Assembly (NCBI GenBank): GCA_018241725.1
Contig: JAFEDI010000008.1
Location: 1-64,000, forward strand
Length of the DNA: 64,000 bases
Direction: 5' to 3'
Source: Pseudomonadota bacterium
Lineage (GTDB): Bacteria > Pseudomonadota > Gammaproteobacteria > Burkholderiales > Rhodocyclaceae
Shown here: piece after piece, positions 2,765 to 45,429 of the stretch
How positions within the stretch are numbered: position 1 is the stretch's first letter
How the letters are laid out: the number at the start of each line of letters is the position of its first letter
Notes under the pieces: model-generated
Told to the model about the DNA's origin: nothing
What the model saw: the letters and a program-made list of their open reading frames with translations, nothing else
Databases searched by the model: none
Translations under genes and position numbers: made by a program

Positions 2765-2852
2765 TGGAGATTTCACATCTCTTGAGCACTTCGTCCGGCT
2801 AGACGCGCACCCTGTCCGGGTTTCGTGCGCAGGTGATCCGACAAGGTGATCA
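2765..2852 (+). repeat. Left terminal inverted repeat of the transposon
   Basis: It begins TGGAGATTTC, has GCACTTCGTCCGG at 2786-2798, and ends with GGTGATCA at 2845-2852. These blocks match the right end at the same distance from the tip. The several short repeats per end fit IS21-family ends, which carry multiple transposase-binding sites. Confidence 0.75.
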
Positions 2853-3204
2853 CCCCTTGCAAAGCAAACGCTGTCGTCGACTGAATCTGGCTGTCCAGAG
2901 CAGGAACGAGACTCAAGTGGGGGTATGACCGGGATGAAGGGAAAACATATACATATCCCCTAGAAGTCAATGTTTTAAAAGGATTAAAAAATCATCATTT
3001 TTAATCCATTTGGCATATTTCACGAGCCCACAGACTCACCCACCACCTCACAAGCCTCGCTTTGGCGGCGCGGACAACTCCTGCCAAGGCAGGATCACCG
3101 ATCTCAGTAAGCTGATGGTCCGTCGTAACGGACTTTGCTATGCCCGCAATGCCTAGCAGTTGATGAATACGGGAACGAGGGAATGTGGTGCAGTGGCGGA
3201 AGGG
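2853..3204. other. Left-end non-coding region with AT-rich tract
   Basis: No gene was recognised. The stretch runs from the inner edge of the terminal repeat to the XRE gene. It includes an AT-rich segment at about 2945-3015 that stands out from the GC-rich surroundings and contains the inverted repeat at 2981-3007. Confidence 0.5.
2981..3007. repeat. Perfect 10-bp inverted repeat, 7-bp spacer
   Basis: GGATTAAAAA (2981-2990) and TTTTTAATCC (2998-3007) flank ATCATCA. It is a possible operator or terminator-like hairpin near the left transposon end, and it lies downstream of the minus-strand XRE gene (3205-3438). Confidence 0.5.
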
Positions 3205-3438
3205 TTACGCATCACTTGTTCGGCTCAAACTGACCGACAAGTCCACGCCTAGCACGACAGAAATCCGATGAAGAATCAGCAGCGAGGGATTGGCGACCCC
3301 GCGCTCCAGTTGCGAGACGTAGGTCCGATCCACCTCGGCCTGCAGGGCCAGCGCCTCTTGAGATAGCCCAAGCCGCTTTCGAGATTGTTTGATCTCGGCT
3401 GCAAGGTCGGCACGAAGTTCGTCGAAAGATTTGACCAC
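3205..3438 (-). CDS. XRE-family transcriptional regulator
   Basis: The 77-residue protein is almost entirely one HTH_3 domain: an N-terminal helix (MVKSFDELRADLAAEIKQSR), then LGLSQEALALQAEVDRTYVS with the recognition helix, and QLERGVANPSLLILHRISV. Single-domain XRE proteins commonly repress mobile-element or toxin-antitoxin promoters. It is the first gene inside the left transposon end. Its own upstream region (3440-3589) is shared with the divergent hypothetical gene at 3590, so it may regulate both. Confidence 0.85.
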   Translation of the reverse strand: MVKSFDELRADLAAEIKQSRKRLGLSQEALALQAEVDRTYVSQLERGVANPSLLILHRISVVLGVDLSVSLSRTSDA

Positions 3439-3589
3439 CGACGAACGATGCCGGTGGCGGGATTATCAATCCACGGAATATAATCTACATTCCGTTCGAT
3501 AGTTTCCCCTAGTTTGTTCCAATCCCCTCACTCAGCCATTCGAACCGTGTAAGCGGTGCGATGGCTCTTCGCTGCCATGAGAGAGTCTG

Positions 3590-4039
3590 ATGTTTCTTAC
3601 CGATAACGCCGCCCGTCATCCATTTGCCTCCCAGCTTTATGGTGATGGAATGACCGTCTGGAGAGCGGCCACTTTGGCTACGCTGGATGAATGGTTTTAC
3701 TTGAATTGCTTGGTCAAATCTCCGGAAGGCGAATTCCCGGAGATCATCCTGATCTCCCATCCCTCGCACGATCTGCTGTCGTTTCTCGATCAACGAAAAG
3801 ATGACGTCACGGTTATCGACGTCCAACTCGTTAGCCCGCCGCACTTGAATGGCACACGGCGTTGGAAGATGGAACCACTGGTTCGGATTTGGAGAGATCC
3901 GTCGAACTCCTGGTCTCACCGATACGAGGTCGCAAATGGCAATCGGTACTACTCCATCCAAAACGATAAGGACAGCACCGAATTCGAGCTTTGCCGGGAA
4001 TTCACCTTTACAGACACCGTTGAACCCGCTGCCGCATAG
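3590..4039 (+). CDS. Hypothetical protein, 149 residues
   Basis: The protein (MFLTDNAARHPFASQLYGDG, later RRWKMEPLVRIWRDPSNSW) has no signal peptide, membrane helix or motif I recognise. Aromatic-rich beta-strand-like stretches suggest a globular cytoplasmic protein. It is divergent from the XRE gene and convergent with the CoiA-like gene that ends at 4106. Codon use and GC content fit a real gene, but there is no functional clue. Confidence 0.55.
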   Translation: MFLTDNAARHPFASQLYGDGMTVWRAATLATLDEWFYLNCLVKSPEGEFPEIILISHPSHDLLSFLDQRKDDVTVIDVQLVSPPHLNGTRRWKMEPLVRIWRDPSNSWSHRYEVANGNRYYSIQNDKDSTEFELCREFTFTDTVEPAAA

Positions 4040-5233: not shown

Positions 5234-5387
5234 GGCGGCGCCCTCATCATTCAATTTGAGTTCGATTGAAAAGCAGGATCAGCAAATGATAGTAAGCTCT
5301 TACAATGAAAAATCTCAATTGAATACTCGGGCTGCCGTGTATCAGCCCTGATGACAATCGGGTTGCCTGGGCAAAGCCGTATCAGCC

Positions 5388-7628: not shown

Positions 7629-7658
7629 GCAGACACGTCCTTCGTTTTGGAGCGAAAC

Positions 7659-10112
7659 ATGTCTGCATCCCTCTCGATGCCTTCCCTGGTCCAGCATCAC
7701 TTCCGAGTCACTGGAATGACCTGTGCGACGTGCGCCACGCGCATCGAAAAAGCACTCGCTAAACTGCCGAACGTCCAGGCGGTCAGCGTCAATCTCGCCA
7801 CTGAAGAGGCCATCGTCAGTACCGCGGCGACACTCCAGCCTGCTGTTCTCGCCGAGGCCGTCCGTGCTGCGGGCTACGAGGTGGAAACACGTATTTCTGA
7901 ACTGCAGATCGGCGGCATGAGCTGCGCCTCCTGCGTGTCCCGTCTCGAAAAAGCGCTCCTGAAGGTGCCCGGCGTGCTCAGCGCGTCCGTCAATCTCGCC
8001 ACTGAGAAAGCCCGGATCGAGAGCGCCACCTCCATTTCCTATGCCACGCTTGCCGCAGCCGTTGAGGCGGCCGGCTACACCGCATCCCCCGTCGCGCAGG
8101 CTCAGCCATACGCACCGCCGCCTCAACGGCGCCCCGAATGGTGGCCGGTCCTTCTAAGCGCCCTGATGACGCTTCCTCTTGTCGTACCCATGGTGCTACA
8201 GGTCTTGGGATACCACTGGATGCTCAGCGGTGAGTGGCAACTCGCCTTGGCCACACCGGTGCAGTTCTGGCTCGGTTGGCGCTTCTACGTTGCCGGCTGG
8301 AAGGCGCTGAAGGCACGCGCCGGCAACATGGATCTCCTCGTGGCGCTCGGGACCTCCGCGGCTTACGGGCTATCCGTCTATATGCTGCTCCAGCAGGCCG
8401 GCGCGGGGATGCCCCACCTCTACTTCGAAGCCTCCACCGCGGTCATCACGCTGGTGTTGCTGGGCAAGTGGCTGGAGCACCGGGCCAAACGGCAAACCGC
8501 CGATGCGATCCGTGCGCTGAATGCGCTTCGCCCAACGATCGCCCGCGTCTGGATCGACGGTCAAGAAATCGAGACGCCGGTTGAGCAACTGTCGCTGTCG
8601 GACGTCGTGGTGGTTCGCCCGGGCGAGCGGATTCCCGTCGACGGGGAGGTGCTGGAAGGCCAGAGCGATGTCGATGAATCACTGATTACCGGCGAGAGCC
8701 GCCCGGTGCCCAAGTCACCCGGCCAGACGGTCACCGGGGGTGCCATGAATGGCGCCGGCCTCCTGCGCGTCCGCACGACTGCGATCGGCACCGAAACCAC
8801 CTTGGCGCGCATCATCCGGATGGTCGAATCGGCCCAAGCCGCGAAAGCGCCCATTCAGCGGATCGTGGACCGTGTCAGCGCGGTGTTCGTGCCCGTCGTC
8901 CTGCTGATTGCGGCGGCAACCTTCGCCGGTTGGATGCTGGTTTCGGGCAACTGGGAGACGGCCATCCTCAACGCGGTCGCGGTCCTGGTGATTGCCTGTC
9001 CCTGCGCCCTGGGGCTCGCGACCCCCACGTCGATCATGGCCGGGACAGGGGTTGCCGCACGACATGGCATTCTGATCAAGGACGCCACCGCCCTTGAGGT
9101 TGCTCATGCAGTCACCGCCGTTGCGTTTGACAAGACCGGCACCCTGACCGAAGGCAAGCCATCCTTGACGACCCTCATCGCTGCCGAAGGCCTTGATGAG
9201 GCCGACGTGCTCAAGCTGGCGGCGGCCCTCCAGCAAACCAGCGAACATCCCCTTGCTCATGCCGTTCTGGAGGCGGCCCGTGTGCGCAATGTCGCTGTTC
9301 CCGCAGTCCGCGATGCGACCGCCCTGCCAGGACGAGGCATCCAGGGTGTTGTCGGGAACGATGTGTTTGCGCTCGGCAGTGCCCGCCTGATGGCGGAACG
9401 CGGTGCCGATGCCGGCCTTCTTCAGTCACAGGCCCAGCAGTTGGAGGCTGAAGGACAGACCGTGTCGTGGTTGTTGCGTGGCCAGGGCAATGGATGGGAA
9501 GCTCTGGGGGTATTGGCTTTTGGCGATGCGATCAAGCAAGCGTCCTTTGCCGCCATCGAACGGTTGCAGGCCCTGGGCATCAAGACCGTGATGCTCACCG
9601 GGGACAATCGGGGTAGTGCGCAAGCCGTGGCCAGATCCCTGGGCATCGACGACGTGCGGGCCGAGTTGTTGCCCGGGGACAAGGCCTCCATCGTGCAATC
9701 CTTGCGCGAGCAAGGCCACGTCGTGGCCATGGTGGGCGACGGACTGAACGATGCGCCGAGCCTCGTGGCTGCAGACGTCGGGCTCGGTATGTCCACGGGC
9801 ACGGATGTGGCGATGGAAGCCGCTGGAATCACACTCATGCGTGGCGATCCGCGCCTGGTGGCGGACGCCTTCGATGTATCCCGGCGAACCTATTCAAAGA
9901 TCAAGCAAGGCTTGTTCTGGGCCTTTGCCTACAATGCGCTGGGGATTCCGTTGGCGGCCTTGGGCATGTTGAATCCCGTCGTTGCAGGCGGCGCCATGGC
10001 CTTCAGCAGCGTCAGCGTCGTCGCCAACGCATTGCTCTTGCGGCGCTGGCGCGGTGCTTCGGCAGCGCAGCTGCCGAGCACGCCGACAACTCTGGAAGGA
10101 AACGCATCATGA
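7659..10112 (+). CDS. copA: Cu(I)-exporting P1B-type ATPase CopA
   Basis: The 817-residue pump moves Cu(I) from cytoplasm to periplasm. Two N-terminal HMA domains carry GMTCATC (residues 19-25) and GMSCASC (about 86-92). The membrane metal site is CPC in [13 protein letters not shown], the phosphorylated Asp is in DKTGTLTEG, the HP motif is in SEHPLAHAV, and the hinge is [10 protein letters not shown]. The ATG at 7659 has GGAG 6 bases upstream; an in-frame TTG at 7647 is less likely. Its stop overlaps the cueR start (ATGA), so the two are translationally coupled. Confidence 0.97.
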
Positions 10113-10576
10113 ACATCGGTGACGCCGCCAAGGCCTCCGGAATCTCGACCAAGATGATCCGCCACTACGAAGGGGTTCAACTGCTTCCGCCGGCCCAGCG
10201 AACGGAATCCGGATATCGGCAGTACACGGAGAACGACGTGCGTAGCCTCCAGTTCATCCGACGCGCGCGTGACTTGGGCTTCTCGATCGACGAGATCCGC
10301 GATCTGCTCAGTCTCTGGCAGGACCGCAACCGTCCAAGTCGCCAGGTCAAGGCGCTGGCCGCTGTGCATCTCGAAACGCTCGACAAACGCTTGCAGGAAC
10401 TTCAAGCAATGAAATCGGCATTGGAGCATCTGGTTCACTGCTGCCAGGGGAATGATCGCCCCGACTGCCCGATCCTGGAAACTTTGGCGGGCACCGGCAA
10501 CGACGCGTCGGACGCAGACGCATCATCGGCCCAGCGCCATCGCCACGGCCACCGAATCACGGGAGGAGCCGCTTGA
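10109..10576 (+). CDS. cueR: CueR, Cu(I)-responsive MerR-family activator
   Basis: The 155-residue protein has a MerR winged HTH ([20 protein letters not shown]), a long dimerisation helix, and the Cu(I)-binding loop [10 protein letters not shown]. Cys112 and Cys120 sit where E. coli CueR has its two ligands. A His-rich tail (QRHRHGHR) extends beyond the usual length. It overlaps copA by 4 bp. The two CueR-type dyads between copZ and copA are its expected targets. Confidence 0.95.
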
Positions 10577-24082: not shown

Positions 24083-24095
24083 GATGGATCCTGTG

Positions 24096-26989: not shown

Positions 26990-27063
26990 TGTGTGCTCCC
27001 TGAACTTCCCGTGGGTTGGCCGCTCCGGCATTTCCCGCATTTGGGCCATGCCGGAGGGGGCTG

Positions 27064-30154: not shown

Positions 30155-31597
30155 TCAGTGATCCGGACGGCCGGTGCTGGCCGGTGCGGTGCGTGCGGCA
30201 GGAGCCAGGGACGGCTTACCGATCAGGGCCATCTGCAGATCGCTTTGGGCGATCCAGTAGTCACGCAAGGACTCGATGTAGCTGTTCACGCTGGTGATCT
30301 GGGAACGGGCGTCGGCCAACAGATCGAACACCCCGATCAGCATGCCGTTGTAGCGCAGCAGGTTCTCTTCGGCGATCCGCTTGTTGAGCGGTACGATTTC
30401 GTCCCGGTAGTGCTTGGCGATATCGAAGCTGCTGCGGTACGCCGAGTAGGCTTCGCGGACTTCCGAACGGGCATTGATTGCCGCCTCGGCCGCGCGTTCG
30501 ATTGCTTGCCCATAGATGGCTTCGGCCTTGGCGACCTTGCTGCCGCCAAAATCGAAGAGTGGGAGCTCGAAACTCACTTCGTAGCCGCGTTTGTAGCCAC
30601 TGTCCCGCGTCCCCTCCAGGACGCGCGCCGGACCGAACTCCAGCACGTTGATGAAGCGCGTGGCCTGGGTAAGGCCAAGGTTCTTGGCCAGCGCTTCCGT
30701 TTCGAGACGGACGGCCTGGAGATCCAGGCGCTGATCAAGCGCGGTCTGTTCAACGGCCGGCTGTTCGTCGGGGGCCTTGGGCAGATCCGGCAGGCGCTCG
30801 GGGAGCTGAATCGACTGTGGCGACGGCAGACCGAGCAGCTTGGTCAAGCGTTCCCGCGCCGCGATATGGGCTTGCTCTGCGCGAGCCAGATCGAGAGCGG
30901 CTGAGGCATAGAAGCCTTGCTCACGCGCCTGCTGCAAGCGATTGAAATTACCGACCTCGGCCATCTTGCGAGCCAGTCCGGCACCCGCTTCTGCAGCTTG
31001 CCTGACTTTCCGGAGGTAACGCACCGACTCCTCCGCGGCGATCGCACCGAAGTAGGCTTTGCGCGTCTCCGAGGCCACCCGGGCAACCTCCAGCGCCGTC
31101 ATGCGCTGGGTCTGGGCGAAATTCCGCTTCTCGACCTCAACGGCCATGGGCATCGTGATCAGCGCAAACAGGTTGAAGGTCAGTACCTGTTCGATCTTGA
31201 ACTCGCGCACACCATTCTCGGCTCGACTGGCACGCAGCATGGAGAAATGGGGGTTGGGCAGCCGCCCGGCCTGGACCATTTCAGCTTCGCTGATGCCAAG
31301 CTCGTAGAACGACGCGCGCAGCCCGCGGTTGTTATAGATGGCGACCTGAACCGCGTCCTCCACCGTCAGCGGCTTGGTCAGCAATTCGGCGACGCGGGCA
31401 TCGACCTCCTTGCGGTCCGCATCGTCTCTGGCCCAGCGGGCATCGGCGCCGATTCGGGCACGGGTCGTATCCCGGACCGTGCCGAAGCCTCCGTCCGCAG
31501 AAAAGCTGGCACAGCCGCTGAGGGTCAGCGTGCCGAGCACCAGCACGGTCAGGGTCTTGATCAGCCCCAGGGGGCGTACGGATAGGTATGAGCGCAT
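30155..31597 (-). CDS. TolC-family outer-membrane lipoprotein
   Basis: The 480-residue protein has a lipobox (TLTLSGCAS) after a basic start (MRSYLSVRPLGLIKTLTVLV), an NodT/CusC-like OMF fold with helical repeats (YDSQAIERAAEAAINARSEV region, RYNGMLIGVFDLLADARSQI), and no obvious RND partner beside it. It sits between a small periplasmic gene and the oxidase, an arrangement of the copA-copB type seen in copper islands. Start supported by GGAGG. Confidence 0.88.
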   Translation of the reverse strand: MRSYLSVRPLGLIKTLTVLVLGTLTLSGCASFSADGGFGTVRDTTRARIGADARWARDDADRKEVDARVAELLTKPLTVEDAVQVAIYNNRGLRASFYELGISEAEMVQAGRLPNPHFSMLRASRAENGVREFKIEQVLTFNLFALITMPMAVEVEKRNFAQTQRMTALEVARVASETRKAYFGAIAAEESVRYLRKVRQAAEAGAGLARKMAEVGNFNRLQQAREQGFYASAALDLARAEQAHIAARERLTKLLGLPSPQSIQLPERLPDLPKAPDEQPAVEQTALDQRLDLQAVRLETEALAKNLGLTQATRFINVLEFGPARVLEGTRDSGYKRGYEVSFELPLFDFGGSKVAKAEAIYGQAIERAAEAAINARSEVREAYSAYRSSFDIAKHYRDEIVPLNKRIAEENLLRYNGMLIGVFDLLADARSQITSVNSYIESLRDYWIAQSDLQMALIGKPSLAPAARTAPASTGRPDH

Positions 31598-32104: not shown

Positions 32105-32788
32105 ATGAAAATACTGATCGTCGAGGACGAACCCAAAACCGGGGACTACCTTAAGCAGGGGCTGGTCGAGGCCGGCTTCAATGTGGATTTGGTCCGGGAT
32201 GGCATGGACGGGCTGCATTGCGGCATGACCGAAGCCTACGACCTCATCGTGCTCGACGTGATGTTGCCGGGGCTCGATGGCTGGCGCGTCCTGCAGGCCC
32301 TGCGCAAGGCTGGCAAGGAGATGCCGATCTTGTTTCTGACCGCCAAAGACAGCGTTGATGACCGGGTCAAGGGGCTGGAGCTGGGCGCTGACGATTACCT
32401 CGTGAAGCCCTTCGCCTTCTCGGAGCTCCTGGCCCGAGTGCGCACACTGCTACGCCGTGGTGTGAAGAACAAGGAAGTCGATGCCTTGCGAGCAGCCGAC
32501 CTCGAACTGGATCTCCCGCGTCGGCGTGTCACCCGAGCAGGTCGGCGGATTGATCTGACCGCCAAGGAGTTTGCCCTCCTTGAACTGTTGTTACGACGAC
32601 GTGGCGAAGTGCTCCCGCGCTCGTTGATCGCATCGCAGGTATGGGACATGAACTTTGACAGCGACACCAACGTGATCGAAGTGGCCGTGCGCCGCCTTCG
32701 CGCCAAGATCGACGACGGCTTCGAGCCCAAGCTGATTCGCACTGTGCGGGGCATGGGCTATGTGCTGGAAGAACAGGAGAGCGAATAG
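32105..32788 (+). CDS. copR: CopR/CusR response regulator (OmpR family)
   Basis: The 227-residue protein has a receiver domain ([20 protein letters not shown]) with phosphoacceptor Asp51 in [14 protein letters not shown], followed by an OmpR winged-helix DNA-binding domain ([32 protein letters not shown]). It is expected to bind the ATTACA-type boxes at 16.3, 17.1, 27.9 and 32.0 kb. The copS start overlaps its stop by one base. Confidence 0.95.
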
Positions 32789-34212
32789 TGCGCACGAGCA
32801 TCCGCCGCAAGTCCCTGACCTTCCGCCTGACCCTTCTCTTCGCGGCGGCATCGACGGCCGTGTTACTGGTTTTGGGTTTGATCGTGGCCCAGTCCGTCGA
32901 ACATCACTTCGAAGAACAGGACATGGAGGCCCTGACCGGCAAGCTCGAGCTGATTCGCCATGCCATGGCGAAGGTCCGCTCACCCGCGGATCTGGCGGCC
33001 ATTCCCCAGCAGATGGATGACTCGCTGATCGGACATCACGGCCTGGTCGTCGCACTCAAGGGACCGGATGGGCGCACCCTGTTTGCAACCGAAGGCGCAC
33101 CTTTCCCTCAACCGCTGCTGGATCGGGTCAAGACGGCCGCCGGGGCCAATCACCCTTACGTCTGGCAGGTGGATGGACAAATGCCTTTCCGGGGCATTGC
33201 GGCGGAGGTGCCGACCGGGGTGCCGTCGTGGCCGCCGGCCGTTGTCGCTGTCGCGACGGATATCTCCCATCACCGTAATTTCATGGACTCGTTCATGACG
33301 ACCCTGTGGCTCGTCATCGTAGGCGGAACGGCCGCAACGGGCCTGCTGGGCTGGTTCGTCGCTCGCCGGGGCTTGGCGCCGCTTCGCGAGATGAGGCGCA
33401 GGGCAACGGAAGTGAGCGCCCAACACCTTGATCAGCGTCTGCCCGTCGATACCGTCCCGGTCGAACTGGCGGAACTGGCCGAATCCCTCAATGACATGCT
33501 GGCTCGGCTGGAAGAGTCCTTCACGCGTCTCTCGGACTTCTCATCCGATCTGGCCCACGAACTCCGCACACCGGTCAGTAACCTGATGACCCAAACCCAG
33601 GTGGCACTCTCGAAGACCCGAACGTCGGGCGAGTACCGGGAAGTGCTGGAGTCCAACGCCGAGGAGTTCGAACGCCTGTCGCGCATGATCTCGGACATGC
33701 TGTTCCTCGCCAAGTCGGAAAACGGTCTCATCGTGCCAGGCCAGGAAACCTTTGATCTGGCAGATGAGGTGACTGCCCTGTTCGATTTCTACGGGGCCCT
33801 GGCCGAGGAGAACGGCGTGACCCTCAAGCTGGAGGGATCGGGACGGGTGACCGGGGACCGGCTTATGCTCCGGCGCGCCATCGGCAACCTGTTGTCCAAT
33901 GCACTTCGCTACACTCCATCGGGTGGAGATATCGTCGTGAAGGTCAGCGCCGACACCGAAACCGCGCGCCTCTCCGTAGAGAACTCCGGAGAGCCCATCC
34001 CGGCAGAACACCTGTCACGTCTCTTCGATCGCTTCTACCGCGTCGATGCATCGCGTCGCCATTCGGGCGATGGCGCCGGACTCGGTCTTGCTATCACCCG
34101 TTCCATCCTCCGTGCACACCGGGGCGACATCGCGGGACGGACGGGAGAAGGCAGCAACACTTTCGAGATGTGGATACCGACATCGATCGTCACGCCCCAC
34201 GGCACGGACTGA
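32788..34212 (+). CDS. copS: CopS/CusS sensor histidine kinase
   Basis: The protein is 474 residues, with GTG start overlapping the copR stop. Layout: TM1 near residues 13-35, a periplasmic sensor of about 130 residues, TM2 near 170-190, HAMP, dimerisation helix with His in SSDLAHELRTPVSNLM, N box RRAIGNLLSNALRYTPSGGD, and G box [14 protein letters not shown]. It senses periplasmic Cu(I)/Ag(I) in the CusS family and phosphorylates CopR. Confidence 0.94.
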   Translation: MRTSIRRKSLTFRLTLLFAAASTAVLLVLGLIVAQSVEHHFEEQDMEALTGKLELIRHAMAKVRSPADLAAIPQQMDDSLIGHHGLVVALKGPDGRTLFATEGAPFPQPLLDRVKTAAGANHPYVWQVDGQMPFRGIAAEVPTGVPSWPPAVVAVATDISHHRNFMDSFMTTLWLVIVGGTAATGLLGWFVARRGLAPLREMRRRATEVSAQHLDQRLPVDTVPVELAELAESLNDMLARLEESFTRLSDFSSDLAHELRTPVSNLMTQTQVALSKTRTSGEYREVLESNAEEFERLSRMISDMLFLAKSENGLIVPGQETFDLADEVTALFDFYGALAEENGVTLKLEGSGRVTGDRLMLRRAIGNLLSNALRYTPSGGDIVVKVSADTETARLSVENSGEPIPAEHLSRLFDRFYRVDASRRHSGDGAGLGLAITRSILRAHRGDIAGRTGEGSNTFEMWIPTSIVTPHGTD

Positions 34213-36269: not shown

Positions 36270-38198
36270 TCACGATTGCGTGGCGGCCCGTTGCGACCTC
36301 AAATTGTAGGCGACGCTTGCCACAATAATGAGCAGGATCAGGACCTGTGCGGTAACGGTCTGGATCGACGGGTAAACGCCAAGAACATCGATGCGCGGTA
36401 TCGAGATAGGCGTGATCTGCAGGATGCCGACCTTTTGCAGTGCGGCCACACCTTTGCCCATCAGAACGACGGCGAGCACCCCCACGAGGGCTGAACTGAA
36501 GGCAAAGAACTGGCTGATCGGCAGACGTGCCGCGGAGCGCAGGAGTACCGCTGCGACCGCCGCCAGGATGACGATGCCGGAGGCGAGGCCGGCAAGCAGA
36601 TAGACGCCATTGTCCTGGGTCCAGAGCGCCGCATAGAAGAGGACCGTTTCAAAGACTTCGCGATAGACGGTGACGAACGACAGTACGAACAGCATCAGCG
36701 CCGATTTCTTGCTCAGCGCGGACGACAGTTTTTCCTTCACGTAGGTTTGCCAACGGCCTGCAAGACTCTTCTGGTGCATCCACATGCCCACGGCCAGGAG
36801 CACAACGGCGGCAAACACGGCGGAAACGCCCTCCGTCATCTCGCGGCTGGCGCCGCTCACATCCACGACATAGGTGGCCACCAACCAGGTCAGGCCCCCG
36901 GCGGCGAGCGCTGTCATCCATCCCGCATGTACATAGGGCAGTACATCGGTCCGGTCCGCTTTTTTCAGGAATGCCATCATTGCGACGACCACCAGCAAGG
37001 CTTCCAGGCCTTCCCGCAGCAGGATGGTCAATGCGCCAAGGAAGGTCGAGAGGGCGTCTTTGGTGCCCCCCAAGGCCTCCTGCGCTTCATCGAGCTGGGC
37101 TTGCAGTTGCTGGGCAATGTCGTGGGCACGCTCGACCTGCCCGGCAGTCAGTGCATTGCGGTAGAGCCCCATCGTCTTTTCGATGACGTGGAAAAGCGCT
37201 TGATTCTTGGCGGCCAGCGCCGGCTCGACGGGCTCGAAGCCATCCAGATAGGCCGACAATGCCAGCTGCGAGGCCAAGCGTTCGTTTCCGTTGTCCAGCG
37301 CGACAACGCTCTCCCTCAGCTTGTCTTTCGCGATCTGTATGCTGCCCGTGTTTGACGTTGCGAGTAACTGGGGCGTGCTCCGTAGGTAGGCGGTGAGCTG
37401 GCGAGCGGCATCGGCGCCGACGGTCTTGGCGAGCGCTGCCTCGGAATGCTGGCTCAGCGTCGCCAGGGTCGGCACGGCCTCACGGAGGGCAGGTTGCGCG
37501 GCCCACAATTTGGCCCCTGCCTGCTGATCAGCCTCGGAGTACGACAGCGTCGAGGCGAAGTAGGCCAGTGCCCAGCGGTCTTCGTCCGAGAGCTGTACGA
37601 ATCCCGGCATGGACGTTCCCGCCACACCCCGCGTGATGATCTGCTGAAGCGCAAACACACTGCGCTCCCGGGCGCGTTCGTGGTCGGCCAGCGCGATGGG
37701 AGGTGGGTTCAGCTTGGCAGCGAGCGGGCCGTCTGCATGCCCGGAAACACCGTGGCACGAGGCACACTGGCTTTGATAGAGCGTGGCGCCCCGTTGTAGA
37801 TCGGGCAACTTGCCGGGGGCCATCGAGACCGGATAGGCCGCGATGAGTCCGCCTGCCAATTTGCGTGCCTGTTCTCCCACAGATGCGGCCGAAGCCTTTT
37901 GTGCGATGAGCGCACGTAGCGCCGCTGCATCGCTCGCCAGGGTCGGAGCGGCCGGCACCGCTGGCAATTCGGCCAACTGTCGTTCTGCGGCCTGTGCGAA
38001 CTCCTGCATCTCGGCATACTCGGCTTCGCTGGCGACCTGTCCCTCCTTGACGGAACGGCCATAGTCGACGGCAAGGTAGTCCAGCAGCTGCCAGATCTGC
38101 TTGGTCTTGTCTTGCGTCGCTTGAGGCGCAACTTGTGCGATCGAGACCGTCGCAATCAAAGAAAACAGAACGATTGAAAGGAGACGCAGGGCTTGCAT
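36270..38198 (-). CDS. Cytochrome c-FTR1 fusion permease (PbrT/EfeU-like)
   Basis: The protein is 642 residues from MQALRLLSIVLFSLIATVSI (signal peptide). The N-terminal periplasmic half has a haem-c site (YQSQCASCHGVSGHADGPLA) and a downstream Met-bearing segment (TSMPGFVQ). The C-terminal half is an FTR1 iron permease with seven TM helices and two REGLE-type motifs: REGLEAL and REVFET. It fits PbrT of lead operons and the FTR1/EfeU iron importers. A Fur-box-like sequence at 38241-38260 suggests iron control, so its substrate is uncertain. Confidence 0.88.
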   Translation of the reverse strand: MQALRLLSIVLFSLIATVSIAQVAPQATQDKTKQIWQLLDYLAVDYGRSVKEGQVASEAEYAEMQEFAQAAERQLAELPAVPAAPTLASDAAALRALIAQKASAASVGEQARKLAGGLIAAYPVSMAPGKLPDLQRGATLYQSQCASCHGVSGHADGPLAAKLNPPPIALADHERARERSVFALQQIITRGVAGTSMPGFVQLSDEDRWALAYFASTLSYSEADQQAGAKLWAAQPALREAVPTLATLSQHSEAALAKTVGADAARQLTAYLRSTPQLLATSNTGSIQIAKDKLRESVVALDNGNERLASQLALSAYLDGFEPVEPALAAKNQALFHVIEKTMGLYRNALTAGQVERAHDIAQQLQAQLDEAQEALGGTKDALSTFLGALTILLREGLEALLVVVAMMAFLKKADRTDVLPYVHAGWMTALAAGGLTWLVATYVVDVSGASREMTEGVSAVFAAVVLLAVGMWMHQKSLAGRWQTYVKEKLSSALSKKSALMLFVLSFVTVYREVFETVLFYAALWTQDNGVYLLAGLASGIVILAAVAAVLLRSAARLPISQFFAFSSALVGVLAVVLMGKGVAALQKVGILQITPISIPRIDVLGVYPSIQTVTAQVLILLIIVASVAYNLRSQRAATQS

Positions 38199-38236
38199 GA
38201 GGGGTCTTACCGTGGAATGTCTTTTTTTGATTCTGC

Positions 38237-38260
38237 GTGCAAATGAGAATGAGTGCAATT
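38237..38260 (-). promoter_or_regulatory. Fur-box-like sequence upstream of the FTR1 gene
   Basis: AAATGAGAATGAGTGCAATT (38241-38260) resembles GATAATGATAAT-type Fur sites (AATGAGAAT core), with GTGC just before. It lies about 40-60 bp upstream of the FTR1 start. It would imply iron repression. Confidence 0.45.
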
Positions 38261-38369: not shown

Positions 38370-38861
38370 TCACGCGCCGCCTCCCTGTCTTGGGGGCACA
38401 TGCTGTCGCCCACCGGCATGCGTGGCGGCGAGATGGCTCTCCGATGCGGCGGGCGTGGTGAGCTCTGCCCCTCCATGGGATAGTTCGTTCAAGATCCCGC
38501 ACTCGGCCGCTTGCCGGCCTTCCTCACAACATGCGCGCAACACCTGAAGCTGCGTTTCCAACTGCTGCAACTCCCGTATCCGCTCGGCAACGTGGCCGAT
38601 ATGGGCATCGAGCAACGCGTTGACGTCTTCGCAACTCTCCGACGGAGTGTCCCTGAAACGCAGGAGCACCCGGATTTCGTCCTGCGTCATGTCAAGGGAG
38701 CGACATCGCCGAATGAAGGCGAGGCGTTCGAGATGAACGGCATCGTAGATCCGATAGTTGCCTTCCGTCCGCGCAGCACGCGGGAGCAACCCTTCGCGCT
38801 CGTAGTAACGAATGGTGTCCACCGGCGTACCTGTCTGCTGAGCGAGCTGACCGATTTTCAT
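38370..38861 (-). CDS. pbrR: PbrR/CadR, MerR-family Pb(II)/Cd(II) regulator
   Basis: The protein is 163 residues from MKIGQLAQQTGTPVDTIRYY. It has a MerR HTH, then Cys77 (SESCEDVNALL), Cys111-Cys112 (RACCEEGRQ) and Cys121. This matches the three-Cys site of CadR/PbrR (77, 112, 119) that binds Pb(II) or Cd(II). It is divergent from pbrA, whose promoter has a matching dyad. An upstream in-frame ATG at 38891 is less likely. Confidence 0.93.
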   Translation of the reverse strand: MKIGQLAQQTGTPVDTIRYYEREGLLPRAARTEGNYRIYDAVHLERLAFIRRCRSLDMTQDEIRVLLRFRDTPSESCEDVNALLDAHIGHVAERIRELQQLETQLQVLRACCEEGRQAAECGILNELSHGGAELTTPAASESHLAATHAGGRQHVPPRQGGGA

Positions 38862-38923
38862 TGCAAGGCCTGAAGCCCGGCGTGGGCTCAAGAGGGATCG
38901 AGGAAGGTCGTCACCTTACCTGC

Positions 38924-38954
38924 TTGACTCTGGAGTTACTACAGGGTTTCCAAT
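38924..38954 (+). promoter_or_regulatory. PbrR/CadR operator and pbrA promoter
   Basis: -35 TTGACT (38924-38929) is followed by the dyad ACTCTGGAGTTACTACAGGGT (38927-38947; 21 bp) and a -10-like TCCAAT at 38949-38954. The long spacer is typical of MerR-type promoters. pbrA starts at 38975. Confidence 0.75.
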
Positions 38955-38974
38955 GGCGGCAACCGGAGATCACC

Positions 38975-41230
38975 ATGAAACCCCTGCCCATCAGCCTGCG
39001 ATCCGAGACCCAGCCCTCATCCTGCGGGTGTAGCGGCACGTGTCACGCCCCGGAGGTGCCTTCCACGAATACGCCTCCACAAGCCGACAGTACGAAAGGC
39101 GGCTTGCTGCTTCGCATTCCGGGCATGGACTGCCCCACTGAAGAGAGTGAGATCCGCCGGGCGGTCGAGCACATCGGGGCGATCGGTGGGCTTCGTTTTG
39201 ATCTATCGGCCCGCACCCTGAGCATCGATGCGCCCGATGATGCGCTGCCGAGCATCATCGACGCCATCCGCAAGGCCGGCTTTGCCTCATCGCCGGTTGA
39301 GCCGGATGCGCCGGTGGACACGGGGCACGATGGAATTTTCCGCGGTACCGCGTTTCTCGCAACGGCACTCGTTCTAGCGCTGGGGGCAGAAGTCCTGGCC
39401 TCTGTGATGCCCAACGATCTGCTGGCCAAGATTGCCGGGATGGGCTTGGCTGCCACTGCGATCGCGATGGCGGGGTTTTCCACCTATCGCAAGGGACTGG
39501 CGGCCCTGTCCCAGGGCCGTCTGAACATCAATGCCTTGATGTCGGTTGCGGTGACCGGTGCCTTTGCCATTGGGCAATGGCCCGAGGCCGCCATGGTGAT
39601 GGCCCTGTATGCCATTGCAGAACTGATCGAAGCCAGGTCGGTCGATCGGGCACGGAATGCGATCAAGGGCCTGCTCGCGCTTACGCCCGAAACCGCCGAG
39701 GCAAAGCAGCCCGATGGCAGCTGGCGTGCGCAGGCCTCCCGCGATGTCGCGCTCGCTACCGTCATCAGGGTCAAGCCCGGGGTCCGTATCCCTCTGGATG
39801 GCGTCGTGACGGCGGGGAACAGCGCGGTCAATCAGGCACCCATCACCGGTGAGAGCCTGCCCGTAGACAAGACCGTCGGCGACCCCGTCTTTGCGGGCAC
39901 GATCAACGAATCGGGGCTATTGGAATTCAAGGTGACGGCGCGATCCAGCGATACCACGCTGGCCCGGATCATCCATGCGGTTGAAACGGCGCAAGGCAGC
40001 AAGGCGCCCATGCAGCGCTTTGTCGATCGTTTCGCGACACTCTACACGCCGGCCGTCTTCGTGATCGCACTGGCCGTGGCGCTGCTCACTCCATGGCTAT
40101 TGGGATGGAGCTGGACTCAATCCTTTTACAAGGCCTTGGTTCTCCTTGTGATCGCTTGCCCCTGCGCCTTGGTGATTGCAACCCCCGTCACGGTCGTGAG
40201 CGGACTCGCCGCTGCAGCGCGCCGGGGGATCTTGATCAAAGGCGGCGTCTTCCTTGAAGAAGCGCGCAAGCTCAAAGTCATCGCTCTCGACAAGACAGGG
40301 ACGATCACCGAAGGCAAACCGAAACTGGTTGCCACCGACATCGTGGACCCGACCGTGTCCGAAAAGCAGATTTTGGAGTGGGCCGGTAGCCTGGCCGCCC
40401 ACTCCGATCATCCCGTTTCGAAAGCCATTTCAAGCGCACTGACGCCAAGCTCAAACACGACCGACCATTTCACAGCGTTGCCAGGGCGTGGTGTCCAAGG
40501 GCGTATCGATGGCCAAGACCTGATTCTCGGCAACCACCGCTTGATCGAAGAGCGGAAGCTGTGCGATCCCGCTGTCGAGGCCCGACTCCTTGCGCACGAG
40601 GCGCAAGGCCGCACGATGACACTCCTGGCCAACGAACGGGGTGTTCTGGCGATATTTGCCGTCGCCGACACGATCAAACCCCACGCCCAGGAGGCCATCT
40701 CGGCTTTGCACGCCTTGGGCGTGAAGTCGATCATGCTGTCCGGCGACAACCAGGCGACGGCCAAAGCGGTCGCCATGCAGGCCGGTGTGGACGACGCACG
40801 CGGCAACCTGTTGCCTGACGACAAGCTCAAAGCCATTGAGGCTTTGCAAAAAGAACATGGTCCCACGGCGATGACCGGTGACGGGATCAACGATGCGCCT
40901 GCCTTGGCACGCGCCGATATCGGCATTGCGATGGGGGCTGCAGGAACGGATACCGCCATGGAGGCCGCCGACATCGTGATCATGAACGATGATCTGCGCC
41001 GGATTCCCGAAGCCATTCGGCTCTCGCGCACGACACACCGGGTACTCTGGCAGAACATCTTTCTGGCGCTGGGAATCAAGGCGGCTTTTCTGGTCCTGGC
41101 CCTGCTGGGCAGCGCCACCATGTGGATGGCCGTGTTCGCCGATATGGGGGCGAGCCTGCTGGTCGTGGGCAATGGGTTGCGATTGTTGCGCCTTCAGCCA
41201 CTTAACGATCATCACCCCGCCAAACCTTGA
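38975..41230 (+). CDS. pbrA: PbrA/CadA-type P1B ATPase (Pb/Cd/Zn)
   Basis: The protein is 751 residues from MKPLPISLRSETQPSSCGCS. The N-terminus has a Cys-rich stretch (CGCSGTCHAPE) and an HMA domain with the Pb/Cd-type motif GMDCPTEE. The membrane CPC is in IACPCALVIATPV. DKTGTITEGKP is the phosphorylation loop, SDHPVSKAI the HP motif and [14 protein letters not shown] the hinge. It exports divalent soft metals. It is the divergent partner of pbrR; with the FTR1 gene the arrangement resembles pbrT-pbrR-pbrA. Confidence 0.95.
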   Translation: MKPLPISLRSETQPSSCGCSGTCHAPEVPSTNTPPQADSTKGGLLLRIPGMDCPTEESEIRRAVEHIGAIGGLRFDLSARTLSIDAPDDALPSIIDAIRKAGFASSPVEPDAPVDTGHDGIFRGTAFLATALVLALGAEVLASVMPNDLLAKIAGMGLAATAIAMAGFSTYRKGLAALSQGRLNINALMSVAVTGAFAIGQWPEAAMVMALYAIAELIEARSVDRARNAIKGLLALTPETAEAKQPDGSWRAQASRDVALATVIRVKPGVRIPLDGVVTAGNSAVNQAPITGESLPVDKTVGDPVFAGTINESGLLEFKVTARSSDTTLARIIHAVETAQGSKAPMQRFVDRFATLYTPAVFVIALAVALLTPWLLGWSWTQSFYKALVLLVIACPCALVIATPVTVVSGLAAAARRGILIKGGVFLEEARKLKVIALDKTGTITEGKPKLVATDIVDPTVSEKQILEWAGSLAAHSDHPVSKAISSALTPSSNTTDHFTALPGRGVQGRIDGQDLILGNHRLIEERKLCDPAVEARLLAHEAQGRTMTLLANERGVLAIFAVADTIKPHAQEAISALHALGVKSIMLSGDNQATAKAVAMQAGVDDARGNLLPDDKLKAIEALQKEHGPTAMTGDGINDAPALARADIGIAMGAAGTDTAMEAADIVIMNDDLRRIPEAIRLSRTTHRVLWQNIFLALGIKAAFLVLALLGSATMWMAVFADMGASLLVVGNGLRLLRLQPLNDHHPAKP

Positions 41231-41507: not shown

Positions 41508-42353
41508 TCAGCTACCGTCGTCCTGGCGTATCGATGGATCGGCATCGTCCAGCGGCATGTTTGAATTCTGAGGGGCTGACTTAGACTCCGACATCTCGCT
41601 TTCCCTCAACCATCTCTCCCGCTCCGCCTGGACGCCTTGCCAAAAGATCACCACATCCATTCGCTGATTCGGGGCCAAGTACACCCAGTGCTTGAATCGC
41701 TGATCAATGAATGTAAAAAGCTCCGGGTAGAAGGGGGCCAACTCACGGGTCTCCATAAGCCCAGCCTGCAGGTTCAAATAGAGTTGCAATCCCCTTTCAT
41801 GGAGCTCACGGGAAGCGATCTCTTCCGCCTGAGCTACAAGCAGTGACATCGCAACCAGTGCCTCGAAGTTGCACATAGCCAAAAGGGCGCGTTCCTCCGC
41901 CTCCTCGAAGGTCTTGAATCGCGGTTCCTTCTCCTCACCTCGAAGCTCAGCCTCAAAAAGCAGCGCACGCACCTGCGGAGACAGTGCTCGCATCTCCGCT
42001 TCGATAGCGCGACGATCAAGCGACTCCCGCTTCAGCAGGCGCCAGATTGGGCTGCGGAACCAGACCGCCGTACCAGGGTAGTGCGCTTCGGCCTGCTCGA
42101 TGAAATTTCTCGCCCCCGGCTTGTCCTGAGGAACTTTGGTGCCTTTCTTGTATTGGTCCCATTTGCGCGGTCGTGAAACGTCCGACTCGCGCTTACGTAC
42201 GCGCTCGCCATCGAGAGCCATCTCGATCGCGTATGCAGAAGATAAGCCCGACTGTAGTTGGACCACGTGAAACCACAGGCGCGTCCTCAGTCTGTCGATT
42301 GGGTCAGTGGGAGGGCGGCCGCGGCCTCGGGGGTTTATAAGCGGCTTTGTCAT
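41508..42353 (-). CDS. Uncharacterised cargo protein with AT-hook-like start
   Basis: The protein is 281 residues from MTKPLINPRGRGRPPTDPID. The RGRGRPP segment is an AT-hook-like DNA-contact motif. The remainder is helical and charged (RALLFEAELRGEEKEPRFKT, ALVAMSLLVAQAEEIASREL). No enzyme motif is visible. It is divergent from the small gene at 42464 with a 110-bp gap and lies next to istAB, so it may be a DNA-binding accessory of the transposon. I do not recognise the family. Confidence 0.55.
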   Translation of the reverse strand: MTKPLINPRGRGRPPTDPIDRLRTRLWFHVVQLQSGLSSAYAIEMALDGERVRKRESDVSRPRKWDQYKKGTKVPQDKPGARNFIEQAEAHYPGTAVWFRSPIWRLLKRESLDRRAIEAEMRALSPQVRALLFEAELRGEEKEPRFKTFEEAEERALLAMCNFEALVAMSLLVAQAEEIASRELHERGLQLYLNLQAGLMETRELAPFYPELFTFIDQRFKHWVYLAPNQRMDVVIFWQGVQAERERWLRESEMSESKSAPQNSNMPLDDADPSIRQDDGS

Positions 42354-42463: not shown

Positions 42464-42754
42464 ATGACACCAATCATCGATAACGATTCGCCCGATGTCT
42501 GCGATCCACTTCGCCGGCAGTTGCGAGAATCCTTGCTGCGTTTGCATGGACCTCTGATGGGGGGGCAGGCGTTGATGACTGCACTAGGGCATAAATCTGC
42601 AGCCTCCATGCGACAAGCAAAGCGACGCGGGCAGATCAGTGTTGTCCTGTTCCCGGTCCCGAACCGCCGAGGCCTGTTTGCGCTCACTCAGGACGTTGCT
42701 GACTGGCTAGCGCGTATGCGTTGCCAGCCCATCAAAGAGGACCCCGCTATCTAG
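42464..42754 (+). CDS. Small probable DNA-binding protein
   Basis: The 96-residue protein (MTPIIDNDSPDVCDPLRRQL) has a segment GGQALMTALGHKSAASMRQA-KRRGQISVVLFPVPNRRGLF that suggests a helix-turn-helix followed by a beta-wing, as in small phage or plasmid regulators. It is divergent from the AT-hook-like gene and 227 bp upstream of istA, behind a terminator. Role possibly regulation of the neighbours or of istAB. Confidence 0.55.
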   Translation: MTPIIDNDSPDVCDPLRRQLRESLLRLHGPLMGGQALMTALGHKSAASMRQAKRRGQISVVLFPVPNRRGLFALTQDVADWLARMRCQPIKEDPAI

Positions 42755-42959: not shown

Positions 42960-42980
42960 TTCCAAAAAAGGAAATCCGCC

Positions 42981-44525
42981 ATGCGGCTCCCGGTACATCA
43001 GCAGCGAGACATCGCGCGCATGCACTACTACGATCCGACGCAGTCCCATCGAGCAATTGCGCGTGGGCTTGCTCTATCACCTAACACCGTCGGTGCACTT
43101 CGAAAAAAAATTGTGGAGTCCGGGCTCAACTGGAACGAACTCCGGGACTTGGATGACGATGCGTGGATCTCTGCGCTTGATACAAAAGACCATTCGATCG
43201 CACAGCGTAAGTTGGCGCCAGATTGGGAATGGGTCGATCAGCAAATGCAAGCAGACGATGCTACCCTGAATCAAGTTTGGCTTGAGTGGCGAGCGCAATC
43301 CCCGAATGGCATCGGCCTGACCCAGTTTTGCGTGCGTTACAAAGATTGGACGCGCGCCCAACATATCGTGATGCGCCAGGTACACGAGCCTGGCAACAGT
43401 CTGTTTGTTGACTTTGCCGGGCGAACGGTCGAGATCCGGGATCCAAACGGAGGGCCATCCATGTATGCACAGATATTTGTGGCGGCCCTGGGGTATTCAA
43501 GTTTGACCTACATCCAAGCTGTGCCATCTCAAAGCACCGAGGATTGGATTAGATGCCACATTGACTGCTTTGCGTACTTGGGTGGTGTTCCAGAATGGGT
43601 TGTTCCAGATAATCTCAAGGCTGCTGTATTACGCCGTACGCGCGATGAAATCGTAATCAATCCTGCCTACCGCCGTTGTCTTGATTACTACTCCACAGCG
43701 GCAAGGCCAACCGGTGTGCGAAAGCCCAAGCATAAATCCAAGGCCGAAGTAGCGGTTAAAATTTTCCAAAGAGGGATCATGTTTCCTCTTCGTAATCATG
43801 TCTTTTTCAGCTTGGAGGAACTGAATACAGAACTTCGGAAAGGTATGGAGGCGCTGAACCGACATCCGTTCAAGAGTATGCCGGGCTCTCGATTTGAGCG
43901 CTTCAACGAAGTGGAAAAGCACAAACTCAAGCCCCTTCCCGATTCCGCATACGAGCTTTGCAACTGGCGTTATCGCGTCCGGGCGGGAGATGATTATCAC
44001 GTTGAACATGGTCGAAACCATTACTCCGTTCCGCACACCTTGCGCGGCGAATACGTAGATCTGAGGTATACCGCAACGATATTGGAAATAATGCATCGCA
44101 ATCGGAGAGTGGCATTGCACGAATTACTCAAGGAACCCGGCGGGGTATCGACAAAAGATGAACACAGACCGATCGCTCACAGTCGCGTTCTTGAGGGCGA
44201 ACCAAAAGCACTATTGGAATGGGCCACCTCGGTTGGTGGAAAGACGGAAGAGATGATTCGCTATCATCTAGAATCCCGAAAAGACATGACCAATGGTCTA
44301 AAAGCTGCACGACGGATTCGCAGTCTTGCTCATCTGCACGGAGAATCACGAATCCAGGAGGTGTGCACTTACGCACTCTCGTTGAATCTGACGGCGCTGC
44401 GCAGCATCGAATCGATTATCAAGCAGTCCGCAGACAAGCAAGTACCTGCCGGCGAAAATCCTACCAACTCGCTTCCAGTTCATGAAAACGTTCGTGGTGG
44501 CGATTATTTCGGGGTGCAATCATGA
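42981..44525 (+). CDS. istA: IS21-family transposase IstA
   Basis: The protein is 514 residues from MRLPVHQQRDIARMHYYDPT. N-terminal HTH (HRAIARGLALSPNTVGALRK), then an rve/DDE core: the first Asp in SLFVDFAGRTVEIR, the second in PEWVVPDNLKAAV, and Glu in a helix (KAEVAVKIF). A Mu-transposase-like C-terminal domain follows (YHVEHGRNHYSVPHTLRGEY). It overlaps istB by 4 bp (ATGA). An upstream extension to 42891 is not supported by a ribosome site. It would pair the ends at 2765 and 45429. Confidence 0.95.
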   Translation: MRLPVHQQRDIARMHYYDPTQSHRAIARGLALSPNTVGALRKKIVESGLNWNELRDLDDDAWISALDTKDHSIAQRKLAPDWEWVDQQMQADDATLNQVWLEWRAQSPNGIGLTQFCVRYKDWTRAQHIVMRQVHEPGNSLFVDFAGRTVEIRDPNGGPSMYAQIFVAALGYSSLTYIQAVPSQSTEDWIRCHIDCFAYLGGVPEWVVPDNLKAAVLRRTRDEIVINPAYRRCLDYYSTAARPTGVRKPKHKSKAEVAVKIFQRGIMFPLRNHVFFSLEELNTELRKGMEALNRHPFKSMPGSRFERFNEVEKHKLKPLPDSAYELCNWRYRVRAGDDYHVEHGRNHYSVPHTLRGEYVDLRYTATILEIMHRNRRVALHELLKEPGGVSTKDEHRPIAHSRVLEGEPKALLEWATSVGGKTEEMIRYHLESRKDMTNGLKAARRIRSLAHLHGESRIQEVCTYALSLNLTALRSIESIIKQSADKQVPAGENPTNSLPVHENVRGGDYFGVQS

Positions 44526-45277
44526 CCGGCATTGCAAGCCGCACCCTCTCCCAACTTCGCGCATTGAAAATGAATTCAATGGCTGCGGCCTATGAACACC
44601 AACTTCAACAGCCAAAGCTGCATGAAATTGGCTTTGACGATCGTTTTGCGCTGTTGGTCGATCAGGAGGTAAATGAGCGCGAATCGAGGAAACTAACCCG
44701 CTTTGTGAAGGAGGCAGGATTTCCTGATAGAGCAAACCTCGAAGACATCGAGTATCGTCCTGAGCGAGGCCTCGAAAAGCAGAGAGTCGTGTCACTCGCA
44801 ACTTGCGAATGGATCCGAAAACAGCTCAATGTAATCATTCTTGGTTCGACAGGGGTTGGCAAGACTTGGCTTGCATGTGCGTTTGGCACACAAGCGTGCC
44901 GTCTTGGATTATCTGTCGCGTTCATTCGCGCAAGTGATTTGTATGAACAAATATCCATCGCCATCCTTGACGGGTCCTTGGCCAAGCTACGGCAAACGCT
45001 GCAAAAGCCATCGTTACTCATCATTGATGATTTCGGGTTAGGGCAACTCACGTTACAGGTAGCCCAAGTGCTGCTTGACGTTATCGATCATCGTGTACGC
45101 AAAGGATCACTGCTTATTACGAGCCAATTCCCCACTACGCAATGGCACGATCTCTTACCTGATAAAACAGTTGCAGATGCAATCCTCGATCGCATCGTCC
45201 ACCAGTCGCATTGCCTTACTTTGAAGGGGGAATCGATGCGGAAGGTAAACGGACGTAAGCGTTTGGAGGCTACATGA
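44522..45277 (+). CDS. istB: IS21-family helper ATPase IstB
   Basis: The 251-residue DnaC/IstB-type AAA+ protein has Walker A GSTGVGKTWLAC (about residues 104-115), Walker B SLLIIDDFGL (about 163-172), and the N-terminal region MTGIASRTLSQLRALKMNSM typical of IstB. IstB helps IstA choose and capture target DNA. Its stop lies 152 bp from the right transposon tip. Confidence 0.95.
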   Translation: MTGIASRTLSQLRALKMNSMAAAYEHQLQQPKLHEIGFDDRFALLVDQEVNERESRKLTRFVKEAGFPDRANLEDIEYRPERGLEKQRVVSLATCEWIRKQLNVIILGSTGVGKTWLACAFGTQACRLGLSVAFIRASDLYEQISIAILDGSLAKLRQTLQKPSLLIIDDFGLGQLTLQVAQVLLDVIDHRVRKGSLLITSQFPTTQWHDLLPDKTVADAILDRIVHQSHCLTLKGESMRKVNGRKRLEAT

Positions 45278-45342
45278 TCATGGTGCCGTAGCGTATGCGC
45301 ATGACACCGTAGCCTGTGCGCACGATGCCGGTCCGGTGTTCA

Positions 45343-45429
45343 TGATCACCGTTGGACGTGATCAGTCGCTATCAAAGTGCCTGATCACGTCCTACCGGAC
45401 GGAATGCGCATGACTACCCGTAATCTGCA
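45343..45429 (-). repeat. Right terminal inverted repeat of the transposon
   Basis: Reading inward from 45429 on the minus strand: TGCAGATTAC, then GCATTCCGTCCGGTAGGACG (45407-45388), then GGTGATCA (45350-45343). Further inside, a unit like CCGTAGC-x3-TGCGCA repeats twice between 45287 and 45325, typical of multi-repeat IS21 ends. Confidence 0.75.

Follow-up and report, generated by a model that had tools for sequence, protein, structure and literature searches.

A 42.7-kb segment with predicted metal-resistance cargo is very probably a transposon of a cargo-carrying IS21-type lineage

Genes and borders of the element

The subject of this analysis is a DNA stretch of 64,000 nucleotides from a bacterium of the Rhodocyclaceae (positions 1 to 64,000 of contig JAFEDI010000008.1, assembly GCA_018241725.1), which we call the window. 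Between positions 2765 and 45429 it holds a segment of 42,665 bp (42.7 kb), the window element, with the transposition genes istA and istB at its right edge and predicted metal-resistance genes to their left. The contig, C140 in our numbering, is 96,314 bp long, and the closest named relatives of its genome in our searches belong to Zoogloea. The features that define the segment are the following:

2548..2764, minus strand: 3′ part of the interrupted host NTF2-like gene (from the joined flanks and the empty site)
2759..2764, no strand: left copy of the target-site duplication, TGCAGC (6 bp)
2765..2894, plus strand: left end of the putative transposon, TG start, repeated GTGATC(A/C) and (C/T)GTCCGG motifs
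41508..42353, minus strand: accessory gene MINUS, 281 aa, no known family, divergent from the HTH gene
42464..42754, plus strand: accessory gene HTH, 96 aa, winged-helix-like by eye, no family match
42981..44525, plus strand: istA, DDE transposase (D144, D210, E256)
44522..45277, plus strand: istB, AAA+ helper, overlapping istA; Walker A GSTGVGKT
45278..45429, minus strand: right end of the putative transposon, repeated TGATCA motifs, terminal CA
45430..45435, no strand: right copy of the target-site duplication, TGCAGC (6 bp)
45436..45653, minus strand: 5′ part of the interrupted host NTF2-like gene (from the joined flanks and the empty site)

IstA scored 234.8 bits with the NCBIfam IS21 model (cut-off 160) and IstB 252.4 bits with its NCBIfam model (cut-off 200). 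The IstA profile matched the solved IS5376 transposase at 1.9e-21, and D144, D210 and E256 are invariant in 9 aligned sequences. Only one close istA was found in the assembly; the other match is 25% identical and lies on a different contig.

The left terminus at 2765 begins TGGAGATTTC, and the right terminus at 45429 closes with AATCTGCA (...GTAATCTGCA). An earlier reading of this DNA, made from the sequence only, had proposed that both ends begin with TG and share TGSAGATTWC; 8 of the first 10 bp do match, after which ungapped identity drops (17/40). The 15/20 block around CGTCCGG that it had described was recovered with a one-base shift between the ends. GGTGATCA is likewise present at both ends, offset by one base. 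The proposed duplication of TGCAGC was seen directly outside both termini, and its 6 bp lie in the range of 4-8 bp that is typical for IS21. Also as in IS21, the element runs from TG to CA and has multiple internal repeats on both sides. The first 42.9 kb of the window contain 18 copies of TGCAGC and 8 positions that resemble the right end at 8/10 bases. Only at 2765 do both fall together, and none of 60 shuffles (two-base blocks) produced such a coincidence. Consistent with the sequence-only reading, which had placed istAB just inside the right end with no second left end near it, none of the 206 TG positions in the 3 kb before istA qualified as a left end. The best of them matched the right end at 7/10 bases without a duplication, and the sole position with a 4-bp duplication matched at 4/10.

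The borders are set independently by a relative, Zoogloea sp. LCSB751 (G190), which carries an element of its own elsewhere in its genome. This element is 27,264 bp long, is flanked by the duplication AGGAG and encodes an IstA 89% identical to that of the window; it is one of the further insertions with these ends that a search with the ends and istA was expected to reveal. The two left ends are identical at 50 of 60 bases. When both elements were compared in 10-bp steps, 0-5 of 10 bases matched outside and 7-10 of 10 inside, and the switch falls exactly at 2765 and 45429.

The uninterrupted locus in a relative

Joining the flanks with a single copy of TGCAGC gives an NTF2-like frame of 144 aa. 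The sequence-only reading had taken the two halves for one gene that is restored on removal of the element, and a search for the uninterrupted locus in related genomes bore this out: in G190 the 388 bp of joined flank lie in one piece at 93% identity. The site was found empty in one of the 22 other genus genomes searched; the remaining 21 gave no match whatever. This empty site, rather than the reading-frame test considered below, is the real proof of insertion. Beside the left end, the azoR-like gene (2281-2520) is by eye about 430 bp shorter than at the G190 locus (L060) and looks internally deleted.

A lineage of large istAB elements

IstA was searched in 297 genomes of the family and in one named-genome scan. 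At 36 istAB loci we looked for distant ends, and both were located at 23; since the 36 were picked for IstA similarity, for the accessory pair or as named plasmid matches, 23/36 is not a natural frequency. Other istA loci were checked for close ends alone or left out of the end search. The 23 elements measure 9,157 to 42,665 bp, the window element being the largest. Duplications of 4-7 bp flank 22 of them. The remaining one, G012, is a contig of 14,576 bp that runs from left terminus to right terminus, with no flank on either side. With G312 and G313 at the same site, and likewise G314 and G315, there are 20 distinct sites among the 23. Small IS21 elements with a proximal left end were also found (9 clear cases of about 2.7 kb among 31 loci). 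The window element thus far exceeds the usual IS21 size, as had been claimed.

Named members of the lineage are Thauera sp. K11 (pTX1), Thauera propionica, Candidatus Accumulibacter 66-26, Azospira (pAZI09), Zoogloea UWPOB_ZOOG1, Limnohabitans and Herbaspirillum. Gammaproteobacterial members reside on the Pseudomonas aeruginosa plasmids Rms149, pNY8709-IMP and p4782_002. The repeated end motifs of the seven elements examined are TGATCA (window, G190, Thauera K11), TGACCA (G310, G239, Rms149) and TGGACA (G323). In a tree of IstA, 19 large and 9 small labelled rows need 2 changes between the classes; labels shuffled at random needed 7.8 on average and were never as low in 500 trials. The window element is therefore the largest found of a 9-43-kb lineage, most members of which carry a conserved extra gene pair.

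Two of the plasmid units have distinct cargo. The unit of p4782_002 (NZ_OX638702.1; L147:5996-17747) is 11.75 kb long, with ends matching at 10/10 and the duplication GCGC. It encodes a TetR regulator together with a tripartite RND efflux system whose DNA is about 81% identical to TMexCD-type systems, and in the collection this record alone covers at least 80% of it. In Rms149 (NC_007100.1, L131) a 20.5-kb unit with the duplication GCGCCT adjoins the MINUS-HTH-istA-istB module and carries genes for type I secretion and for a calcium-binding protein, the latter gene being 9.2 kb long.

Movement of whole units and exchange of cargo

Over about 12 kb the elements of G311, G314, G315 and G324 are 98.9-99.9% identical, and this stretch recurs as the right part of a 24.8-kb element in G310. 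The duplications of these elements are TTTGG, CCCCAGT (G314 and G315, one site), AACAACC and GATGG, and their 400-bp flanks are unlike, except for G314 with G315. One nearly identical unit of 12 kb thus occupies four unlike sites, each with a different duplication, from which we conclude that whole units move. The earlier claim that istAB moves the whole metal-resistance block as a unit is supported by these relatives; for the window copy itself, whole-unit transposition by istAB is what we strongly infer from them.

A second empty site was found for the 22.3-kb element of Azospira pAZI09. Its joined flanks match 49 plasmid records, 47 of them over at least 80% of the query and 48 at 99% identity or more. 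The pAZI09 record (NZ_AP021845.1) is opened at position 1 at the left terminus of its own element; because the circular plasmid is opened there, the duplication copies stand at different places of the record.

What stays constant among the elements is the right-hand 3.9-4.2 kb, with MINUS on the minus strand, HTH, istA, istB and the right end. Thauera K11 and T. propionica have the first 411 bp (99.5%) and the last 3,901 bp (99.87%) in common and different cargo between them; blastn reports nothing else common to both. In T. terpenica the 3,901-bp module forms one contig with two different right flanks, which we read as two copies. The G310 element, with 12.8 kb inserted directly behind its left end, shows growth of an element. 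The 9.8-kb element at the common site of G312 and G313 has a 10-bp end-like start without visible internal repeats at the left and only the 4.2-kb module in common with near relatives; its left end looks like a capture through a cryptic end.

The accessory gene pair

Homologues of MINUS and HTH accompany istA in 18 of the 23 elements with both ends, namely 15 of the 18 first found and 3 of the 5 later ones (G081, Rms149, pNY8709). The 15 are not 15 independent cases, because seven have a nearly identical core. At the same place G112 and G321/G323 encode different divergent proteins, whose motifs look zinc-finger-like by eye; the annotated divergent gene of p4782_002 gave no match to MINUS, and G239 none to the pair. 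Neither protein matched a Pfam or NCBIfam family beyond sub-threshold chance matches, nor was there a credible match to a solved structure; the best hit of the HTH profile, a glutamate racemase at 0.01, was taken as chance. The small IS21 elements of about 2.7 kb leave no room for the pair. In an uncultured Aquabacterium (L115/L079) some 1.4 kb of other DNA interrupt MINUS, which looks like the insertion of a further element.

Across the 297 family genomes the MINUS profile gave 9 matches stronger than 1e-100, all beside istA, and 8 weaker ones in 7 genomes. In a class-wide sample MINUS was rare, with 2 of 369 genomes, including the window's own, matching at 1e-6. Before istA in gammaproteobacterial plasmid stretches, 6 of 8 tested had both MINUS (1e-16 to 1e-27) and HTH (1e-21 to 1e-28). 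At five (L132-L135, L137) of the weaker-match loci (L132-L138) a MINUS-like gene stands beside a transposase of 878-934 aa that matched integrase-core and Mu C-terminal domains. The transposases of L133 and L137 also gave a TnsA-like N-terminal match below threshold; the five may be TnsAB fusions. A TniB-type ATPase was identified in L132, L133 and L137, TniQ in L132, L134, L135 and L137, and HTH homologues in L132-L134 (3 of 4 tested among the five). For the divergent accessory module of these Tn7-like loci we found no family name. The idea that MINUS is a TniQ homologue was rejected as well: none of 12 TniQ-locus proteins was matched by its profile (best E 0.16), and there are Tn7-like loci that hold both TniQ and a MINUS-like gene.

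For the function of the pair, regulation or end-pairing seems likeliest and target selection is possible. The duplications of the elements have no evident common sequence, and this, together with the coexistence of MINUS-like genes with TniQ, makes target selection less likely. We tentatively suggest that the small winged-helix-like protein binds the divergent promoter region, the ends or both, and that its 280-aa partner joins it in regulating transposition or in helping distant ends to pair. It is conceivable, at a chance somewhat below even, that the pair is a portable helper module that lets transposases of the Mu/Tn7/IS21 superfamily run as large cargo transposons, through distant-end pairing, operon regulation or target choice, and that two or more IstA lineages as well as Tn7-like transposons have acquired it.

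Interpretation and alternative explanations

Our data make it very probable that 2765-45429 is one transposon of a cargo-carrying IS21-type lineage. IstA would recognise the multi-repeat ends at 2765 and 45429 and IstB would capture the target DNA, so that the whole unit would be inserted with a short duplication of 4-7 bp. The transposition genes would form a fixed module at the right end (MINUS, HTH, istA, istB and the right end; about 3.9-4.2 kb) and the left end a short distant stretch, while the intervening cargo would be exchanged or grow over time. The chemistry may be the same IstA/IstB chemistry as in IS21, acting on distant ends. We infer that IstA and IstB are the active enzymes from family knowledge and because the ends and istA stay together.

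The ~2.7-kb elements with proximal left ends, common in the same family (9/31 loci, one without an istB to test), raise the question of whether istAB is an ordinary small IS21 beside or in an unrelated metal-resistance island, the far left match and the duplication being coincidental. This is highly improbable. The 3 kb before istA hold no left end, the joint match of end and duplication arose once and in 0/60 shuffles, G190 has the exact empty site, and the left end is conserved in the independent insertion of the same relative; we rejected the possibility on the empty site and the conserved distant ends. A somewhat better, though still poor, chance is given to a pseudo left end used once, that is, a small IS21-type element that captured neighbouring DNA through a cryptic TG start and so produced one-off large units. 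The G312/G313 element, with its end-like start of 10 bp, no visible left repeats and only the 4.2-kb module in common with relatives, is what this would look like. In contrast, the left end of the window has internal repeats and is 50/60 identical to that of the other large element, and the Thauera pair has 411 bp of left end in common. Capture through cryptic ends may account for the gain of cargo, but not for the nature of the window element. Finally, a genomic island could have been moved by another enzyme (an integrase, or a Tn7-like or Tn402-like system) with istAB as a passenger at its edge. The occurrence of the accessory pair also at Tn7-like loci of the TniB/TniQ type speaks for this idea; against it, no TniQ was matched on the window contig (the cargo was not searched for every kind of integrase), and the module with istA and the right end is constant between close relatives with different cargo. 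We consider such an island scarcely credible, and a Tn7-like or integrase-moved one was rejected because no TniQ was matched on C140 and the istA module stays constant as the cargo differs.

A number of observations weigh against the reading of the window element as a cargo-carrying IS21-type transposon. Movement of any element was not observed. In the reading-frame test, removal of the element gave longer frames than both frame-shifted joins at 10 of 16 sites, but 6 of 16, the window's included, failed to discriminate, so that the control is mixed. For the window an open reading frame of similar length spans the shifted join (299 versus 308 codons), and the test alone is therefore not discriminating there. 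The second end was not found at 13 of the 36 loci. Four of these (G212, G250, G316, G322) run into contig edges, but others had ample upstream DNA (G263 55.8 kb, G072 54 kb, G325 40 kb, G317 13.6 kb), and plasmid stretches of Citrobacter, P. fluorescens, P. syringae, Acinetobacter and E. coli gave no convincing second end. For G081, G239 and pNY8709 the search that ranked the ends presupposed a duplication, which makes each of these cases weaker alone. Among the 23 elements istA is unbroken in 22; that of pNY8709 is in two pieces, and therefore this unit looks inactive. The IstA tree, with 27 of its 55 rows unlabelled, was built by a quick method and has weak deep branches. One of its two changes is G081, whose IstA lies on the side of the small elements, yet which has MINUS and HTH and a 9.2-kb element.

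Relation to known systems

The window element resembles the IS21 family (IS21, IS5376) in its DDE transposase IstA, its AAA+ protein IstB, the overlap of their genes, the multi-repeat TG...CA ends and the short duplications. It differs in that the elements here are 9-43 kb long, contain cargo and usually two extra genes, and have a left end up to 40 kb from istA; where IS21 has only istA and istB between its ends, the window has cargo and two accessory genes. Tn7-like elements (Mu/TnsB-type transposase, TniB, TniQ) likewise combine cargo, a DDE transposase and an AAA+ partner, and at five loci they have the MINUS-like gene divergent from the transposase gene, three also with the HTH homologue. 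In contrast, the window has IstA, in which no TnsA domain was matched (Pfam; no search was made for a separate TnsA gene in the cargo), and TniQ (PF06527) had no match on C140, its matches in the same genome lying on contigs C95 and C4. The Tn402/Tn5053 mercury-resistance family also carries cargo and pairs a DDE transposase with an AAA+ partner, but uses TniA/TniB/TniQ and a resolvase, not IstA/IstB.

In transposable modules (TMos) and composite transposons, too, the enzyme of an insertion sequence (IS) moves extra DNA. Composites need two IS copies, whereas here one istAB lies between two lineage-conserved ends; a composite transposon was rejected, since only one close istA was found in the assembly and no two copies flank the segment. 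TMo is used in PMC3281130 for a single IS copy that mobilises an adjacent segment. The cited IS21 papers describe IS21 members as two genes between two ends (PMC10122671), give IS21 as an example of elements that hold transposition proteins only (PMC11208146), report no target selector for it (PMC10293859) and let IstA pair the ends and IstB capture the target (PMC10122671, PMC11208146). In the open-licence literature searched, which was available in part, no description of cargo-carrying IS21 transposons was found. 'IS21 family transposon' denotes a two-gene istA-istB element in PMC8411920, its use in PMC12030098 cites this two-gene sense, and the Ralstonia transposon Tn6770 includes an IS21 family transposase among other genes (PMC7371123).

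IS21 is a structural model for AAA+-assisted transposition. If our reading is true, annotations as 'IS21 family transposase' can hide large mobile units, and a lineage in Beta- and Gammaproteobacteria would use the same enzymes to move 9-43 kb of genes for metal resistance, efflux, secretion or catabolism, both on chromosomes and on plasmids. Should MINUS and HTH be the portable helper module considered above, they would be the first conserved component of IS21-type transposition besides istAB. Occurring at Tn7-like loci as well, the pair offers a concrete way to test what turns a two-gene element into a cargo transposon.

Cargo of the window element

By homology, the cargo is predicted to confer resistance to copper and related metals. 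Names below the curated cut-offs are to be read at family level.

7647..10112, plus strand: copper P-type ATPase (CopA type), above cut-off of the copper-translocating ATPase model
10109..10576, plus strand: CueR-type copper regulator, above curated cut-off
17119..19482, minus strand: heavy-metal P-type ATPase (copper type), above cut-off
20948..24202, minus strand: CusA/CzcA family RND metal efflux pump, above cut-off
24096..25715, minus strand: RND adaptor, CusB-like, with CusF-like C-terminal stretch, above cut-off for RND adaptor only
25712..27067, minus strand: outer-membrane efflux subunit, below curated cut-off
28717..30138, minus strand: multicopper-oxidase-like protein, below curated cut-off
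30155..31597, minus strand: TolC/IhpA-like outer-membrane protein, below curated cut-off
32105..32788, plus strand: CopR/SilR-type response regulator, above cut-off
32788..34212, plus strand: CopS/SilS-type sensor kinase, above cut-off
36270..38258, minus strand: Ftr1/EfeU-like permease fusion, below curated cut-off
38861..41230, plus strand: heavy-metal P-type ATPase (Zn/Cd type)

Of 20 cargo proteins scanned, five (4106-5254, 6307-7146, 11537-12478, 12612-14006 and 35511-36227) remained without a match in NCBIfam at 1e-5. An 8-kb piece of the left cargo gave no megablast match in plasmids. When a 4-kb piece (11537-15567) was searched in 23 genus genomes, two stretches of about 1.2 kb each were found to recur; these (12611-13855 and 14341-15566) were seen at 78-97% identity in 9 of the 22 other Zoogloea genomes. 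They lie nearly always off the contigs that hold istA matches, and in G261 both are on contig C9, about 38 kb apart. Because the two stretches recur separately, the cargo appears to be a mosaic whose parts exist on their own. The sequence-only reading would have been called into question by the same block with different borders in other genomes; parts of the cargo were found separately, and the whole block with other borders was not seen with the 8-kb piece in plasmids or the 4-kb piece in Zoogloea genomes. Multiple copies of the two stretches are present in G287 and G306, at contig edges in the latter, and they may form a separate mobile or duplicated unit. The G+C content is 53.6% in the transposition module (41508-45429), 61.4% in the cargo and about 62% in each of the flanks, as though the module had a different origin.

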